Assembly (NCBI GenBank): GCA_024642285.1
Contig: JAHEBJ010000001.1
Span: 124,001-188,000 of the forward strand
Origin: Sphingobacteriales bacterium
Lineage (GTDB): Bacteria; Bacteroidota; Bacteroidia; Chitinophagales; Chitinophagaceae
Length of the DNA: 64,000 nucleotides
Reading direction: 5' to 3'
A program made the translations under genes and the position numbers. Each line of letters begins with the position of its first letter. Positions within the stretch are counted from its first letter, which is position 1. The notes under the pieces were generated by a model, which was given only the letters and a program-made list of their open reading frames with translations, had not been told where the DNA came from and made no database searches. Below are positions 59,000-64,000 of the stretch, one piece after another.

Positions 59000-59012
59000 G
59001 TTATGCACAGTC
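59000..59012. repeat. Cassette-terminus-like core, distal end of homocysteine methyltransferase unit
   Basis: GTTATGCACAGTC; complementary (10/13) to AATTGTGCACAAC at 59987-59999. Confidence 0.5.
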
Positions 59013-59022
59013 ATTTTTGATG

Positions 59023-59973
59023 TCAGGTAGCCATGACCTGACTTGCAATTTCAAGGACGTGTTCTTCGTCGGTGCCGCAACAGCCGCCAAATACGTTTAG
59101 CTGATTAAATATTTCCTTCAGCTTCTTATTCTCTCTACCTAATTCCTGTGGGTTTCCCCTGTCTAATTCTGTTGCGTTATCCAACTCAGCATGACTTTTA
59201 CAAGAAGCATTTGCCCTAATTCCCTTTATTCGCTTGGTCCACTGCTCCTTTATTCCGTTTTGCAATTCATTTATAAAGTGTTTTGGATGGGCGCAATTAA
59301 TCATAAAATATATCGGAGGTTCTTTTACACTTTCGTCAACTTGTTCAATTGCTTCTTTTAAATTTATTCCTGCTGGCAGTTTGCCATTGGTTTCAACTGT
59401 AAAAGAAATGACAACAGGAAGATTTAAGGTATTAGCAGCTCGTACAATGCCAATTGCTTCCTCTACATAATTCATCGTAATTGCTGACACCATATCAACT
59501 TGTGCACCTGCAAAAACTTCTATTTGCTTCAAATGATATTCTTGCGCTTCATCAACAGTCATTTTATTTTCAGGTTTATACCCATCGCCACGAGGACCAA
59601 CGCAGCCACTTATAACAATAGCAGGTAAAGCATCTTCAAATTCATCTTTCAAATCAACCAAAAGCTGAACTGCTTTTTCATTGACTGTTAATATTGCTGA
59701 CTTTGGGTAGCCAATTTTTTCAATCCAATCAGTGTTCGCCCGCCAGGTAGGGCTTTCCAAAATGAAACCTGCTTTTGAATCTTTTGCAATATTCAAATAC
59801 CGTCGATAATAATCCCTAAGTGCATTATAACCTTTTTCATTTTTTAGTAAATCAAAAGCAGCAAAATGCGGAAGTTCATAGCCTTCAAGGAAAACAAGCG
59901 TCGTTTCTAGTCCGCCGTCAGTTAAAAACAAATCAGCAGATAAATTCGGTAGAATGGTTTTACTATTTGCCAT
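59023..59973 (-). CDS. Homocysteine S-methyltransferase family protein
   Basis: FLTDGGLETTLVFLEGYELPHFAAFDLL; ISGCVGPRGDGY; FGGCCGTDEEHV Zn ligands; start trimmed from ORF start 60087. Confidence 0.93.
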   Translation of the reverse strand: MANSKTILPNLSADLFLTDGGLETTLVFLEGYELPHFAAFDLLKNEKGYNALRDYYRRYLNIAKDSKAGFILESPTWRANTDWIEKIGYPKSAILTVNEKAVQLLVDLKDEFEDALPAIVISGCVGPRGDGYKPENKMTVDEAQEYHLKQIEVFAGAQVDMVSAITMNYVEEAIGIVRAANTLNLPVVISFTVETNGKLPAGINLKEAIEQVDESVKEPPIYFMINCAHPKHFINELQNGIKEQWTKRIKGIRANASCKSHAELDNATELDRGNPQELGRENKKLKEIFNQLNVFGGCCGTDEEHVLEIASQVMAT

Positions 59974-59986
59974 AGTGATGTTTTTT

Positions 59987-59999
59987 AATTGTGCACAAC
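59987..59999. repeat. Cassette-terminus-like core, proximal end of homocysteine methyltransferase unit
   Basis: AATTGTGCACAAC; reverse complement GTTGTGCACAATT. Confidence 0.5.
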
Positions 60000-60016
60000 G
60001 GGCGGGGCTTTGTGCT

Positions 60017-60042
60017 GGGCTGGACGTTAAAACGTCCAGCCC
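60017..60042. repeat. Perfect stem-loop in spacer
   Basis: GGGCTGGACGTT-AA-AACGTCCAGCCC. Confidence 0.85.
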
Positions 60043-60045
60043 CGG

Positions 60046-60108
60046 AACCGCTGCTGATTGAAAATATGAGTTTGAAGTTAACAACAAAAAGCTAAATAGG
60101 CATTCGTC
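60046..60108. repeat. Conserved intergenic block, copy A
   Basis: AACCGCTGCTGATTGAAAATATGAGTTTGAAGTTAACAACAAAA...ATTCGTC. Confidence 0.75.
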
Positions 60109-60132
60109 AAGCCCCGATATGATGCACAGTAG

Positions 60133-60156
60133 AACCTGCCTGCCGGCAGGCAGGTT
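60133..60156. repeat. Palindromic intergenic repeat copy 1 (perfect 24-bp palindrome)
   Basis: AACCTGCCTGCCGGCAGGCAGGTT. Confidence 0.9.
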
Positions 60157-60220
60157 ACCGCTGCTGATGAAAACCAGGCCATGCCCGTATATTGGTAAAC
60201 CAATGTTGGCTGAAGCCTTT

Positions 60221-60619
60221 TTAAGTCATTAATTTAATATCAAGCCCTTTCCTCAATGTGTTTTGAATTTCTGCAACTTTGTCCGTATGCTTGATTAATT
60301 TTTCAATATCTGATTTGGGAGAGTCAGATATTACACTTGTTTTATACATAAAATTAGTTCCAGCTTCACCTTCGGCCCCAAATTCACCAGTAACTTCAAC
60401 TTCAACACCTGATATTTTTATATTCATTTTGTCTGCTTCCCGATATAAGTCATTACAAAAGCAAGTTGCTAAAGAAAGTAATAAAAGTTCTCCACCATTT
60501 ATAGAAGAACCAAATCCTGAATGTTTAGCTGAAATATGCATTTCCTTAGCAGATTCATTAGTCGTTACAAAAATTTCATGGTGCTTGAATTTACTTTTTA
60601 TTGTAGCAGATATTTTCAT
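60221..60619 (-). CDS. OsmC-like family protein
   Basis: GGELLLLSLATCFCNDLYREADKMNIKISGVEVEVTGEF. Confidence 0.92.
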   Translation of the reverse strand: MKISATIKSKFKHHEIFVTTNESAKEMHISAKHSGFGSSINGGELLLLSLATCFCNDLYREADKMNIKISGVEVEVTGEFGAEGEAGTNFMYKTSVISDSPKSDIEKLIKHTDKVAEIQNTLRKGLDIKLMT

Positions 60620-60691
60620 AACTATTAATTTGTAGATAAAGTTTCAGTAAGCATAGCAGCAAACTGATTTTTGGCGGTTCGTTGTTCCATT

Positions 60692-61393
60692 TTACACTAG
60701 TTGGGGATTTAGTTGAGTTCTTTTAATGCCTTTTATTAGTAAATAAAAGCAAAAAATCCATTCTCCAAGTGCACAAGGAATAAGGATTGCTGGATATACC
60801 ATGTTTACAAAGTTTGGAACAAGAAACCAAACAATGCTGTTGAAAATATAGCATACACCTCCAATAAGTAGCAGAATTCCCAGCCATTTTGGAAAAATGA
60901 CTGATAAAACGATTAAACGACAAAGAACAAGTAAGTGGAAGCCAAAAAACAAAAGACTAATATTATATCCTGTCCCGTGCAACTTAATTGTCAATAAAGC
61001 CAAAGCGTTGAGTTGGTCGGTATTGAATACGGTAAGGAAATCAGCTTCTTTTAAAAAGGATAATGCTGCAAAATGAGTCAAGGCAACAACGCTTAAAATA
61101 GTAATGCTGGCAAACCTGAGTAAAGTAGAAAGTATAGATAGAGGTCTGTTAGTTTCCTTCAATAAAATGAAAAGGATTGAGGTTACGCCTACATCACACA
61201 GTAACATGAATAATTCACTTACAAAACCAAACCGGTACCAGAATTCAGAAGACAAAATGTTCTTTGCAGTAACAGTTGCATTATTATAGTCAACCAAACT
61301 GTCACGAACAAAGATTTGAGCAATGAGTCCCAAAATTATTATTAATAAATAGAGGAGACCTCCAATTCTTGCGATAGTAAATTTTTGATACAT
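60692..61393 (-). CDS. DUF4386-like multi-pass membrane protein
   Basis: KFTIARIGGLLYLLIIILGLIAQIFVRDSLV...; start trimmed to MYQKFT from ORF start 61417. Confidence 0.75.
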   Translation of the reverse strand: MYQKFTIARIGGLLYLLIIILGLIAQIFVRDSLVDYNNATVTAKNILSSEFWYRFGFVSELFMLLCDVGVTSILFILLKETNRPLSILSTLLRFASITILSVVALTHFAALSFLKEADFLTVFNTDQLNALALLTIKLHGTGYNISLLFFGFHLLVLCRLIVLSVIFPKWLGILLLIGGVCYIFNSIVWFLVPNFVNMVYPAILIPCALGEWIFCFYLLIKGIKRTQLNPQLV

Positions 61394-61459
61394 TGTCGTT
61401 TTTTCTACAAAACGCATAACAGGAAATTTTGTTACAATCTAATAGTGGATCCGCTGCCC

Positions 61460-61480
61460 AACCTGCCTACTGGCAGGCAG
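61460..61480. repeat. Palindromic intergenic repeat copy 2
   Basis: AACCTGCCTACTGGCAGGCAG. Confidence 0.85.
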
Positions 61481-61538
61481 ATGTACTTACTAAAGTACAG
61501 AATATATTGTGTTGATGAGTAGTATTCCGTCGAACCCG

Positions 61539-61560
61539 AACCTGCCTACCGGCAGGCAGG
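61539..61560. repeat. Palindromic intergenic repeat copy 3
   Basis: AACCTGCCTACCGGCAGGCAGG. Confidence 0.85.
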
Positions 61561-61597
61561 CTTAAGCCGATAAAAGTTACTGCTGCCCGGCTCAACG

Positions 61598-61621
61598 TTG
61601 CGTCAGCCCCAGCTGACGCAA
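61598..61621. repeat. Perfect stem-loop in spacer
   Basis: TTGCGTCAGC-CCCA-GCTGACGCAA. Confidence 0.85.
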
Positions 61622-61629
61622 AACCCCTT

Positions 61630-61643
61630 GTTAGCTGCAGTGC
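61630..61643. repeat. Cassette-terminus-like core, distal end of NTF2-like unit
   Basis: GTTAGCTGCAGTGC; reverse complement GCACTGCAGCTAAC. Confidence 0.6.
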
Positions 61644-61662
61644 TACTTGCGGGACGAAAGAC

Positions 61663-62169
61663 TTAATGTTTAGTGGAATCTGTTTGGGCATGCTCTTGCA
61701 TTGATTCTTGCAGGAAGACGACTTTCCATTTGCTGTTTATTTTTCTGAATAACATCGACATACCAAAAGGTTCATATCTTACTTCCTGTCCGTTTTTGTA
61801 AGTTGCTATTAATGCGCCTGAATAGCTCCACAATACATTGTCCTCACTTAAATACATGTATTTTTCTGTACCCTTTGCAATTATTTCACTAGTGAGTTGC
61901 GCATAAAACTGTCGAACCATATTTTTATAAGCAGCCTTGTTATAAAATACGCCTGAGGTCTCTACATAAGTGAAGTCATTACCCGAAAAAGAAAATAAAT
62001 TATATAATTTTGTCGTGTCAACTTTGGCTGCCGCATCATGAATCTCTCCAATCACAGATTGAATTTCACTTTGTATTTGTTGCTTTTGGTCTTCACTTAA
62101 TTCAGTGTTTGATTTTTGCGAGCAAGAAAATAGAATTATTGTAATAAGCAGCGGAGTTAAAACTTTCAT
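61663..62169 (-). CDS. NTF2-like (SnoaL/DUF4440-type) lipoprotein
   Basis: Lipobox LFSCSQKS; compact NTF2-like domain with YMYLSEDNVLWSYSGALIATYKNGQEVRYEPFGMSMLFRKINSKWKVVFLQ. Confidence 0.7.
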   Translation of the reverse strand: MKVLTPLLITIILFSCSQKSNTELSEDQKQQIQSEIQSVIGEIHDAAAKVDTTKLYNLFSFSGNDFTYVETSGVFYNKAAYKNMVRQFYAQLTSEIIAKGTEKYMYLSEDNVLWSYSGALIATYKNGQEVRYEPFGMSMLFRKINSKWKVVFLQESMQEHAQTDSTKH

Positions 62170-62215
62170 TTTATTAATAATAATTAGAAATTTAAAATTA
62201 TTAAAACGTCAAATC

Positions 62216-62229
62216 GCATTGCAGCTAAC
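62216..62229. repeat. Cassette-terminus-like core, proximal end of NTF2-like unit
   Basis: GCATTGCAGCTAAC; reverse complement GTTAGCTGCAATGC matches the other end at 13/14. Confidence 0.6.
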
Positions 62230-62274
62230 ATCCAGTTCTTTGTGCAGTTGGGGAATAAAATTCCGTCTGCTCAT

Positions 62275-62335
62275 AACCGTTGCTAATTGAAAATATATTG
62301 TTGAAGTTAAGAACAAAAGTTGATAGTAATTCGTC
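62275..62335. repeat. Conserved intergenic block, copy B
   Basis: AACCGTTGCTAATTGAAAATATATTGTTGAAGTTAAGAACAAAA...ATTCGTC. Confidence 0.75.
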
Positions 62336-62430
62336 TGATGGAACTAAAGCTTAAATTTACAGTTAGCTGATGTTAGAGGGTCTGGCCCAACTTGCATAAT
62401 ACCCAATGTTATCGGCTATCCTTTTTCTGT

Positions 62431-64000
62431 CTACCGTTTTTGGACCTTGTTTTCTATCCACTTATTAACTTTTGTTTCCAGAATGATGAGGGGTAAACAG
62501 CCGTCTTTTAAAACTTCATCGTGAAACTCTTTAATGTCAAATTTATTTCCTAATTTTTTCTTTGCTCTTTCACGCAGCTCAATAATTTTTAATTCCCCCA
62601 CTTTATAACTCACTGCCTGTCCTGCCAAAACCATAAATCGTTCTATCTTTTGTTCAGCATCAATGGATGATACTGGTTGATTCTCCAATACATAAGCTAT
62701 GGCTTTTTCCCGGGACCATCCATTGTAATGTATTCCTGCATCAACAACTAATCGAACTGCCCTTTCTATTTCTTGATTTAGTCTCCCCAAATATTGATAG
62801 GGGTCTGTGTACATACCTAATTCTGTTCCTAAACTTTCAGCATATAATGCCCATCCTTCCCCAAAAGCACTTGTCCAATATGCTTTTCTAAATTCTGGAA
62901 TATCGGCTTCCTGTTGAATAGCGAACTGGTAGTGATGCCCAGGAATAGCTTCGTGCATAAACAGAGATTCCATTGAAAAATAATTGTATTTAGCTGGGTC
63001 AAGTACTACCTCATAAAAAATTCCTGGTCTTGTTCCATCTCTCGATGACTTAGTGTATTGAGCATTAGCACCAGCAGCACGAAATTTTTCAGTAGCTCTT
63101 ACTTCAAACTTTGCTTTTGGTTTTAAATTAAAAAGGATATTCAGTTGTGGCGACATTTTATCCTGAAAACTTCTGAATTTATCCAACACTTCCTCTTCCG
63201 TTTTAAATGGAAAGAATTTAGGCTCAGTTCTTACATACTGAAAGAAAGACTTTAAATCACCTTTAAAGCCAACTTTTGTTTTTAAAGAATCTATTGCTTT
63301 ACGGATGCGTGAAACTTCACTAAGCCCTAAAATAAAAATTTGCTTGGCTGTAATGTTGGTTGAAGTGTAATACTTTAACCATAATTCGTACTCTTTCTTC
63401 CCATTAGAATTATCTAAAAGCCCTGATGTTTTTCTTGCTTTGGGTATATAATCAGTAACTATATAATCGTGTAATTTTTTATAGGCTGGTTTAATAATAT
63501 TTTCAATAGCATCTGAATAATCTTTTTTTAATTGGACCGCAGAAGTACTATCTAAGTTGTCAGGAAGTTTTAGTAAAGGCTTATAGAAAACATTTTCTTG
63601 ACTTGTACCTACAAATAATGGTTTTAATTGCGGTGGCACTTTTTTCATTGCAGCCCTTGGGTTTGTATTATTTAGTGCTATACCTTTTTGCATATTAGCT
63701 ATTGCTTGGTCAACCCAAATTTGAAAAAATTTCATACGGCTAATAAAATCTCTATAGTCCTTTTCAGTGTTGAAAGGAATAAATCCTGCTCCTGAACCTA
63801 ATGTGGCAAACTTTGTTGGAAAGCTAAATACGAATTGGTCAACAGGTTTGTAAAACCCCAAAGAATTATTTAGTATTTCGTTTTCGGATTTCAGCTTGTA
63901 GGTAAGCACATCAATACTTAATAGTTCTGATTCTGTTAAACCTGATTTACTTATGAAACGTAAAGTGTCAAGATATTTTTTATTTAATGCTTTTGCCTTC
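62431..64000 (-). CDS. DUF885 family protein, 5' end truncated by window edge
   Basis: FMHEAIPGHHYQFAIQQE zinc-peptidase-like motif; the frame stays open upstream of the listed GTG 'start' to the window end (...KKYLDTLRFISKSGLTESELLSIDVLTYKLK). Confidence 0.9.
   Translation of the reverse strand, partial: KAKALNKKYLDTLRFISKSGLTESELLSIDVLTYKLKSENEILNNSLGFYKPVDQFVFSFPTKFATLGSGAGFIPFNTEKDYRDFISRMKFFQIWVDQAIANMQKGIALNNTNPRAAMKKVPPQLKPLFVGTSQENVFYKPLLKLPDNLDSTSAVQLKKDYSDAIENIIKPAYKKLHDYIVTDYIPKARKTSGLLDNSNGKKEYELWLKYYTSTNITAKQIFILGLSEVSRIRKAIDSLKTKVGFKGDLKSFFQYVRTEPKFFPFKTEEEVLDKFRSFQDKMSPQLNILFNLKPKAKFEVRATEKFRAAGANAQYTKSSRDGTRPGIFYEVVLDPAKYNYFSMESLFMHEAIPGHHYQFAIQQEADIPEFRKAYWTSAFGEGWALYAESLGTELGMYTDPYQYLGRLNQEIERAVRLVVDAGIHYNGWSREKAIAYVLENQPVSSIDAEQKIERFMVLAGQAVSYKVGELKIIELRERAKKKLGNKFDIKEFHDEVLKDGCLPLIILETKVNKWIENKVQKR

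Follow-up and report, generated by a model that had tools for sequence, protein, structure and literature searches.

What kind of unit is a single small gene enclosed by complementary termini, and how did it come to lie where it does? The question is raised by the 64,000-nt stretch of a Sphingobacteriales genome analysed here (hereafter, the window), in which GTTAGCTGCAGTGC at 61630-61643 and GCATTGCAGCTAAC at 62216-62229 are complementary at 13 of 14 positions; a repeat search stretches this inverted pair to 21 nt at 86% (61629-61649 / 62210-62230). Positions and pairing are thus as given in the preliminary description, as is the presence of exactly one open reading frame between the two 14-mers (minus strand, 168 aa). 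The assignment of its product as an NTF2-like lipoprotein also holds, with a SnoaL_3 domain above cut-off and an N-terminus (MKVLTPLLITIILFSCSQK) that reads as lipoprotein-signal-like. Taken by itself, the pair is within chance, as inverted 14-mer pairs matching at 13/14 or better and spaced by 300-1000 bp occur 38 times in the window versus 9-19 times in random sequence (five order-1 random sequences).

The surroundings of the gene are more informative. From ~57.7 kb to the end of the contig (858 bp beyond the window) all genes lie on the minus strand, in a run of glyoxalase-like, unnamed (183-aa protein), homocysteine S-methyltransferase, OsmC, DUF4386, SnoaL and DUF885 genes, followed further upstream by an amidohydrolase-like gene identified by eye, and long structured intergenic stretches separate several of them. 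Sequences like the SnoaL intergenic stretch are also present on contigs C17 and C149 of the same genome, beside different genes. T9SS sorting domains and a SusC/RagA match mark this genome as Bacteroidota-like.

Alignment of such junctions from the window's genome and its congeners revealed one family of sites. The left side reads NNNNAAC (R''), a spacer of ~5-7 nt, TTTATGCA-A-GTTGGG (L'') and a variable part of ~110 nt, and the right side reads CCCAAC-C-TGCATAAA (L'), a spacer of ~8 nt and GTTNNNN (R'). The order R''-L''-loop-L'-R' is the layout of integron attC sites, and these attC-like sites (~190-220 nt) separate mostly one-gene, one-strand units, giving the array layout by which integrons are recognized: cassettes of about one gene, in the same orientation, with a palindromic attC between them. 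The L'' and L' boxes are conserved, and the arm spacing (~160 nt) varies by no more than a few bases in most sites. A one-base A.C mismatch interrupts the L box on the top strand in 17 of the 17 sites for which both arms were captured by the pattern; both strands of the site fold, and the top-strand A.C mismatches correspond to G.T on the bottom strand. The GTT is kept, but RRRY follows it in just 7 of 54 sites, so that the core GTTRRRY is mostly lacking. A palindrome, CCTGCCTGCCGGCAGGCAGG, was seen inside the variable parts of attC-like sites (window positions 60132-60156, 61459-61481 and 61538-61560) and elsewhere in the genome (C129, C126 and C147); it looks like a separate dispersed repeat that invaded attC loops.

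A covariance model of the sites (R1; 36 training sites, 21 pairs, mostly in the L box) matches 66 of 88 genomes of the genus (E 1e-5) and 35 of 120 genomes of the order (1e-8), including strong full-length matches in other genera and some families, and a reversed control pattern gave zero matches in the exact-pattern search. On contig C13 of genome G214, one array spans 58 kb and comprises at least 30 sites, all on one strand. Few cassettes are common between array stretches, and homologous stretches occur within G214, G241 and G239, with ends traced to cassette borders in some cases. A run of such units lies on C149 of the window's genome, where at least five contig flanks carry attC and hence several separate clusters are present. 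On the one-contig chromosome of G005 (C1), small attC-like clusters are scattered over 0.64-4.79 Mb, beside one recombinase-headed cluster; cassettes may be seeded there away from the main array.

In integrons, recombination at the G/TT of R' makes the inserted cassette begin with R', and R'' is left close to the cassette's end. Because the site is split within R', the start of a cassette must complement its own end and not the ends of others. Among 51 cassettes from 7 genomes of the genus (set 1; 10 nt beyond the GTT/AAC core, cross pairs taken within the same array), 6.7 of 10 positions matched for own ends versus 4.3 for cross pairs, with a total of 343 matches against a permutation mean of 243 (sd 10) and 0 of 20000 permutations as good. 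In 51 further start-end pairs from newly fetched arrays of several genera (set 2), the values were 8.0 of 9 own versus 4.1 cross (0 of 10000 permutations). Own pairing exceeded pairing across the same junction in 36 cassettes, versus 7 the other way. The split-site signature, namely complementarity of a cassette start to its own end, is thus a property of the 102 cassettes of both sets. Position +8 is mismatched in 94% of set-1 cassettes (A/C in 35/51), and it is also the sole mismatch of the SnoaL pair. It is this recurrence of the same arrangement, with the same position mismatched, around cassettes in related arrays that sets the 13/14 pair beyond chance.

The borders of the SnoaL cassette and the features around it are collected in the table. 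Its start was set by the R1 match of the preceding site, the right end of which is taken as the insertion point of the SnoaL cassette. Its end was placed at the next GTT (GTTATGCG), which directly precedes the next gene and is 223 bp away from the R'' box; this placement is less sure than that of the start because the right arm of the site is divergent. The unit originally proposed, 61630-62229, was therefore too short: what had been taken for its terminus at 61630-61643 is the R'' box, from which the site runs on to about 61420. This site scores just 7.9 bits with R1, and was assigned by its R'' box, position and length together with a sister site of the same left-arm subtype (C149:2574-2821), which keeps an intact right arm, GACGCAAAACCCC; the L''-like motif of the SnoaL site is found again at C17 and C149. 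Among the neighbours, the DUF885 gene and its cassette extend beyond the window as far as GTTATTGGC, at about window position 64268, and this start pairs with its own R'' (GCCGATAAC) at 8 of 9 positions; for the homocysteine S-methyltransferase cassette, start GTTGTGCACAATT and own end GACTGTGCATAAC are complementary at 10 of 13. An attC is absent between the DUF4386 and OsmC genes and present after OsmC (model R1), and the two probably form one two-gene cassette, a tentative grouping, as the ends of the pair match poorly.

Table. Features of the SnoaL cassette and its neighbours in the window (R1, covariance model of attC-like sites).
Feature	Position	Strand	Remarks
Homocysteine S-methyltransferase cassette, GTT start to R'' box	59000-59998	-	PF02574; attC continues below 59000
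attC-like site after the OsmC gene	59986-60218	-	R1 49.9 bits, E 3e-12
DUF4386 gene (60692-61417) and OsmC gene (60221-60619)	60221-61417	-	PF14329, PF02566
Proposed SnoaL gene cassette, ~810 bp	61420-62228	-	Runs from TT of the upstream attC's GTT up to and including G of the GTT that follows
attC-like site of the SnoaL cassette, divergent subtype	61420-61643	-	TTTTGCGTC left arm, decayed right arm
R'' box of the SnoaL cassette attC	61630-61643	-	GCACTGCAGCTAAC in gene direction; then L''-like AAGGGGTTTTGCGTCAGC
SnoaL cassette gene, 168-aa lipoprotein-like protein	61663-62169	-	Pfam SnoaL_3 / NTF2-like domain, 26.5 bits, cut-off 22
Start of the SnoaL cassette, R' half of its own site	62216-62229	-	GTTAGCTGCAATGC in gene direction; complements 61630-61643 except +8
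attC-like site of the preceding (DUF885) cassette	62216-62421	-	R1 158.3 bits, E 8e-41, all 209 positions; one of the 36 sites used to build R1, score partly by construction
DUF885 gene of the adjoining cassette	62431-64000	-	PF05960, 459 bits

A tyrosine recombinase heads the arrays in G129, G241, G214 and others, and the window's genome has an intact copy of it (C65:193-1446, 417 aa). Relatives of the C65 protein are present in 50 of 88 genus genomes at E 1e-45, of which 41 are strong. At least three attC sites are found in 38 of the 41 strong-recombinase genomes versus 16 of the 47 others (Fisher p 1e-8), with a median of 11 and 1 attC matches, respectively. By a hand count among the matches listed, at least 17 genomes carry the recombinase no more than about 2 kb from an attC, which in 16 of them is downstream of it and on its strand; the binomial tail for this adjacency is 3e-12 (62 recombinase matches), if 3% of each genome is assumed to be near an attC. 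Long contigs of G089, G005 and G223 show the recombinase and then runs of attC on its strand, and the same layout is found in two further genera besides the genus itself. At one locus, G129:C9 (L094:13788-18618), the recombinase faces away from the array, unlike at the other loci, an orientation that resembles classical integrons; an attI-like TGCGTCTATTTTCGAGTT stands ahead of the first cassette there. In G089 the recombinase that heads an array of ~20 sites (L176:8481-9218) seems truncated or frameshifted, with a 246-aa frame, and this large array may be frozen.

The attI site itself could be located by comparison of G214 and G314: the two loci are near-identical as far as ACACATGTT, a stretch that takes in the end of the recombinase and the ~140 bp after it, and beyond this they are unrelated and begin different first cassettes. 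As the identity ends at GTT, the crossover maps to this triplet, which places an attI with G/TT crossover beside the recombinase. With one consensus run over all recombinase loci, an attI-like motif of the TTCGTATATTTATGAGTT type was found after the recombinase stop at 11 loci (p <=0.01) and a different motif at others. On C65 the recombinase is followed by an attI-like ...GTAAATACACATGTTGTGGGCAATTG, and the contig ends just past the start of the first cassette. The window's contig also ends in or near a cassette, and its cluster may be continuous with the recombinase head on C65 or separate from it.

Overall, the SnoaL unit is very probably one gene cassette of an integron-type array, driven by this recombinase family and bearing the marks of a split site. 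A circular cassette would have carried a ~220-nt palindromic attC-like site, R''-L''-loop-L'-R'; site-specific recombination at the GTT within R' would have opened the circle, so that R' became its first bases and R'' stayed near its end, and the complementarity of start and end would follow from this splitting of the site on insertion. The tyrosine recombinase of the array heads, of which this genome has a copy on C65, is the most likely enzyme. We infer that it catalyses both insertion and excision, that it does so on one folded strand, and that the SnoaL cassette has moved. The preliminary description had already suggested a circular cassette with its own recombination site, and the pairing of starts with their own R'' and not those of neighbours supports it; the conserved L''/L' boxes, attI and the recombinase complete the picture. 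It had further anticipated the same unit at other loci or empty sites lacking it, and this expectation failed: 99 genomes (its own and 98 relatives) yielded neither a further copy of the SnoaL cassette nor an empty site, and the same held when one genome of each GTDB species was scanned, for which reason its past movement is read from the system as a whole.

One variant of this explanation treats the SnoaL unit as a fossil, that is, a former cassette now immobile, with a decayed attC, in a cluster away from the recombinase. The degenerate right arm of its attC agrees with this, as does the absence of the cassette from relatives, and judging by that arm and the low R1 score the site may indeed have lost function. 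On the other hand, the left border is an intact attC (158 bits, in part by construction), and the genome retains an intact recombinase and an attI-like site followed by a first-cassette start. We regard present immobility as possible, though with the odds somewhat against it.

An attC cluster of an ordinary IntI integron (CALIN), whose classical integrase resides elsewhere or was lost, would account for the layout and the GTT...AAC logic, which match integrons. Clusters without an adjoining integrase are common in integron surveys (PMC9024848), and G236 and G022 have arrays without a recombinase in the stretch read. However, a search for IntI above the TIGR02249 cut-off (265 bits) found none in the window's genome and the nine congeners searched, the window's genome having just Xer-like matches below the cut-off, and only a stop-containing remnant in 1 of 200 genomes of the family. 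Such IntI are present in 109 of 398 genomes of the phylum, nearly all of them, among the matches listed, outside the window's class; each kind of integrase seems to have its own part of the phylum. A different recombinase stands at the array heads, and with the scarcity of GTTRRRY this makes an ordinary IntI origin improbable. A single gene inside a transposon or MITE with terminal inverted repeats, as the 14-bp inverted ends flanking one reading frame might suggest, was rejected as very unlikely: the ends differ from cassette to cassette and covary rather than being common to a family, a transposase is absent inside, and each end extends into a conserved hairpin common with the neighbouring unit. 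Chance or a pair of transcription terminators, compatible with the abundance of such pairs in the window, is refuted at the system level and hardly credible, as it cannot explain own-versus-cross pairing, the recurrent +8 mismatch and the attI breakpoint.

The recombinase itself was compared with IntI in more detail. An additional domain near patch III, unique to IntI, is presented as defining and necessary in the part of PMC9668308 that cites Messier and Roy 2001, and the alpha-I2 helix of IntI contacts G20'', the second extrahelical base (PMC3053210). Between patch III and box II lie 64-68 residues in those cassette recombinases where the distance is measurable, versus 107 in all IntI measured and 71-73 in the genome's own XerC/D. 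The best solved fold match to an AlphaFold model of the cassette recombinase (pLDDT 83, pTM 0.53; a recombinase fold with an added N-terminal domain) is IntI4 on VCR DNA (2a3v); an alignment to IntI4 breaks into two pieces around residues 180-246 of the latter, and the extra helix of IntI is absent from the model. Cassette recombinases score 184-192 bits with TIGR02249, below its cut-off, and their best NCBIfam is NF040815 (XerA/integron integrase; 188-213 bits, cut-off 220). A tree built from 70 proteins places the IntI in one clade (100/100) and the cassette recombinases in another; as several branches are long and Xer rows few, the family may be sister to IntI or independent of it. Residues 20-107 of the recombinase at L004:193-1446 form a confident ~90-residue alpha/beta N-terminal domain, seen in cassette recombinases, with a motif like G-x-[KR]-W-S...CWY-x-P and a weak partial DUF5710 match in one member only; it may bind the site.

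Without the IntI-specific insert, the recombinase probably reads the folded site in another way, and a candidate cue would be the recurrent pair of top-strand A.C mismatches, which the bottom strand would present as G.T wobbles. We consider it likely that a second integrase lineage, lacking the supposedly necessary domain, captures and shuffles attC-type cassettes across an order of Bacteroidota type, with its own attI, a longer R box and a strand choice made perhaps by recurrent mismatches and not by extrahelical bases. If the recombinase does act on these sites, cassettes can be captured without the additional domain of IntI, and two systems become available in which to compare the rules for recognizing folded sites. 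Searches that demand the IntI-specific region would miss this recombinase. IntegronFinder 2.0 reported for Bacteroidetes In0 elements only and one complete integron, in Salinibacter ruber M1 (PMC9024848); the arrays of the kind described here are common in one genus, extend to other genera and amount to a large store of accessory genes. No account of such arrays in Bacteroidota was found in the literature outside subscription papers and preprints, and novelty is claimed with this qualification, since the coverage stops short of preprints and most subscription papers.

Among known systems, the closest likeness is to IntI integrons such as the Vibrio cholerae chromosomal integron with its VCR sites: one-gene cassettes in one orientation, long homogeneous arrays, palindromic R''-L''-loop-L'-R' sites with a GTT crossover, cassette starts complementary to their own R'', and an attI adjoining a tyrosine recombinase. 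In contrast to IntI, the present recombinase lacks the specific insert of ~40 residues, falls outside the IntI clade, carries an extra N-terminal domain of ~100 residues and is usually transcribed toward the array, and its R-box pairing spans 10-14 bp with a recurrent mismatch rather than the 7-bp GTTRRRY box. The reversed chromosomal integrons of Treponema (PMC3607928) differ in having a true IntI (intI in that paper). The XerA and XerC/D recombinases resemble the cassette recombinases in their patch III-box II spacing and in the family that gives the best score, NF040815, but the genome has separate XerC- and XerD-like copies of its own, and the cassette recombinases group away from them. 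As in CALIN, the window has attC-like sites and an integrase is absent from the same contig stretch; unlike in CALIN, a recombinase and attI stand at the head of this site family in relatives. Because the additional domain, membership of the IntI clade and the GTTRRRY core were each looked for and found wanting, we do not file the system as an IntI integron; on the features compared here, it works like an integron, but with an integrase of another kind.
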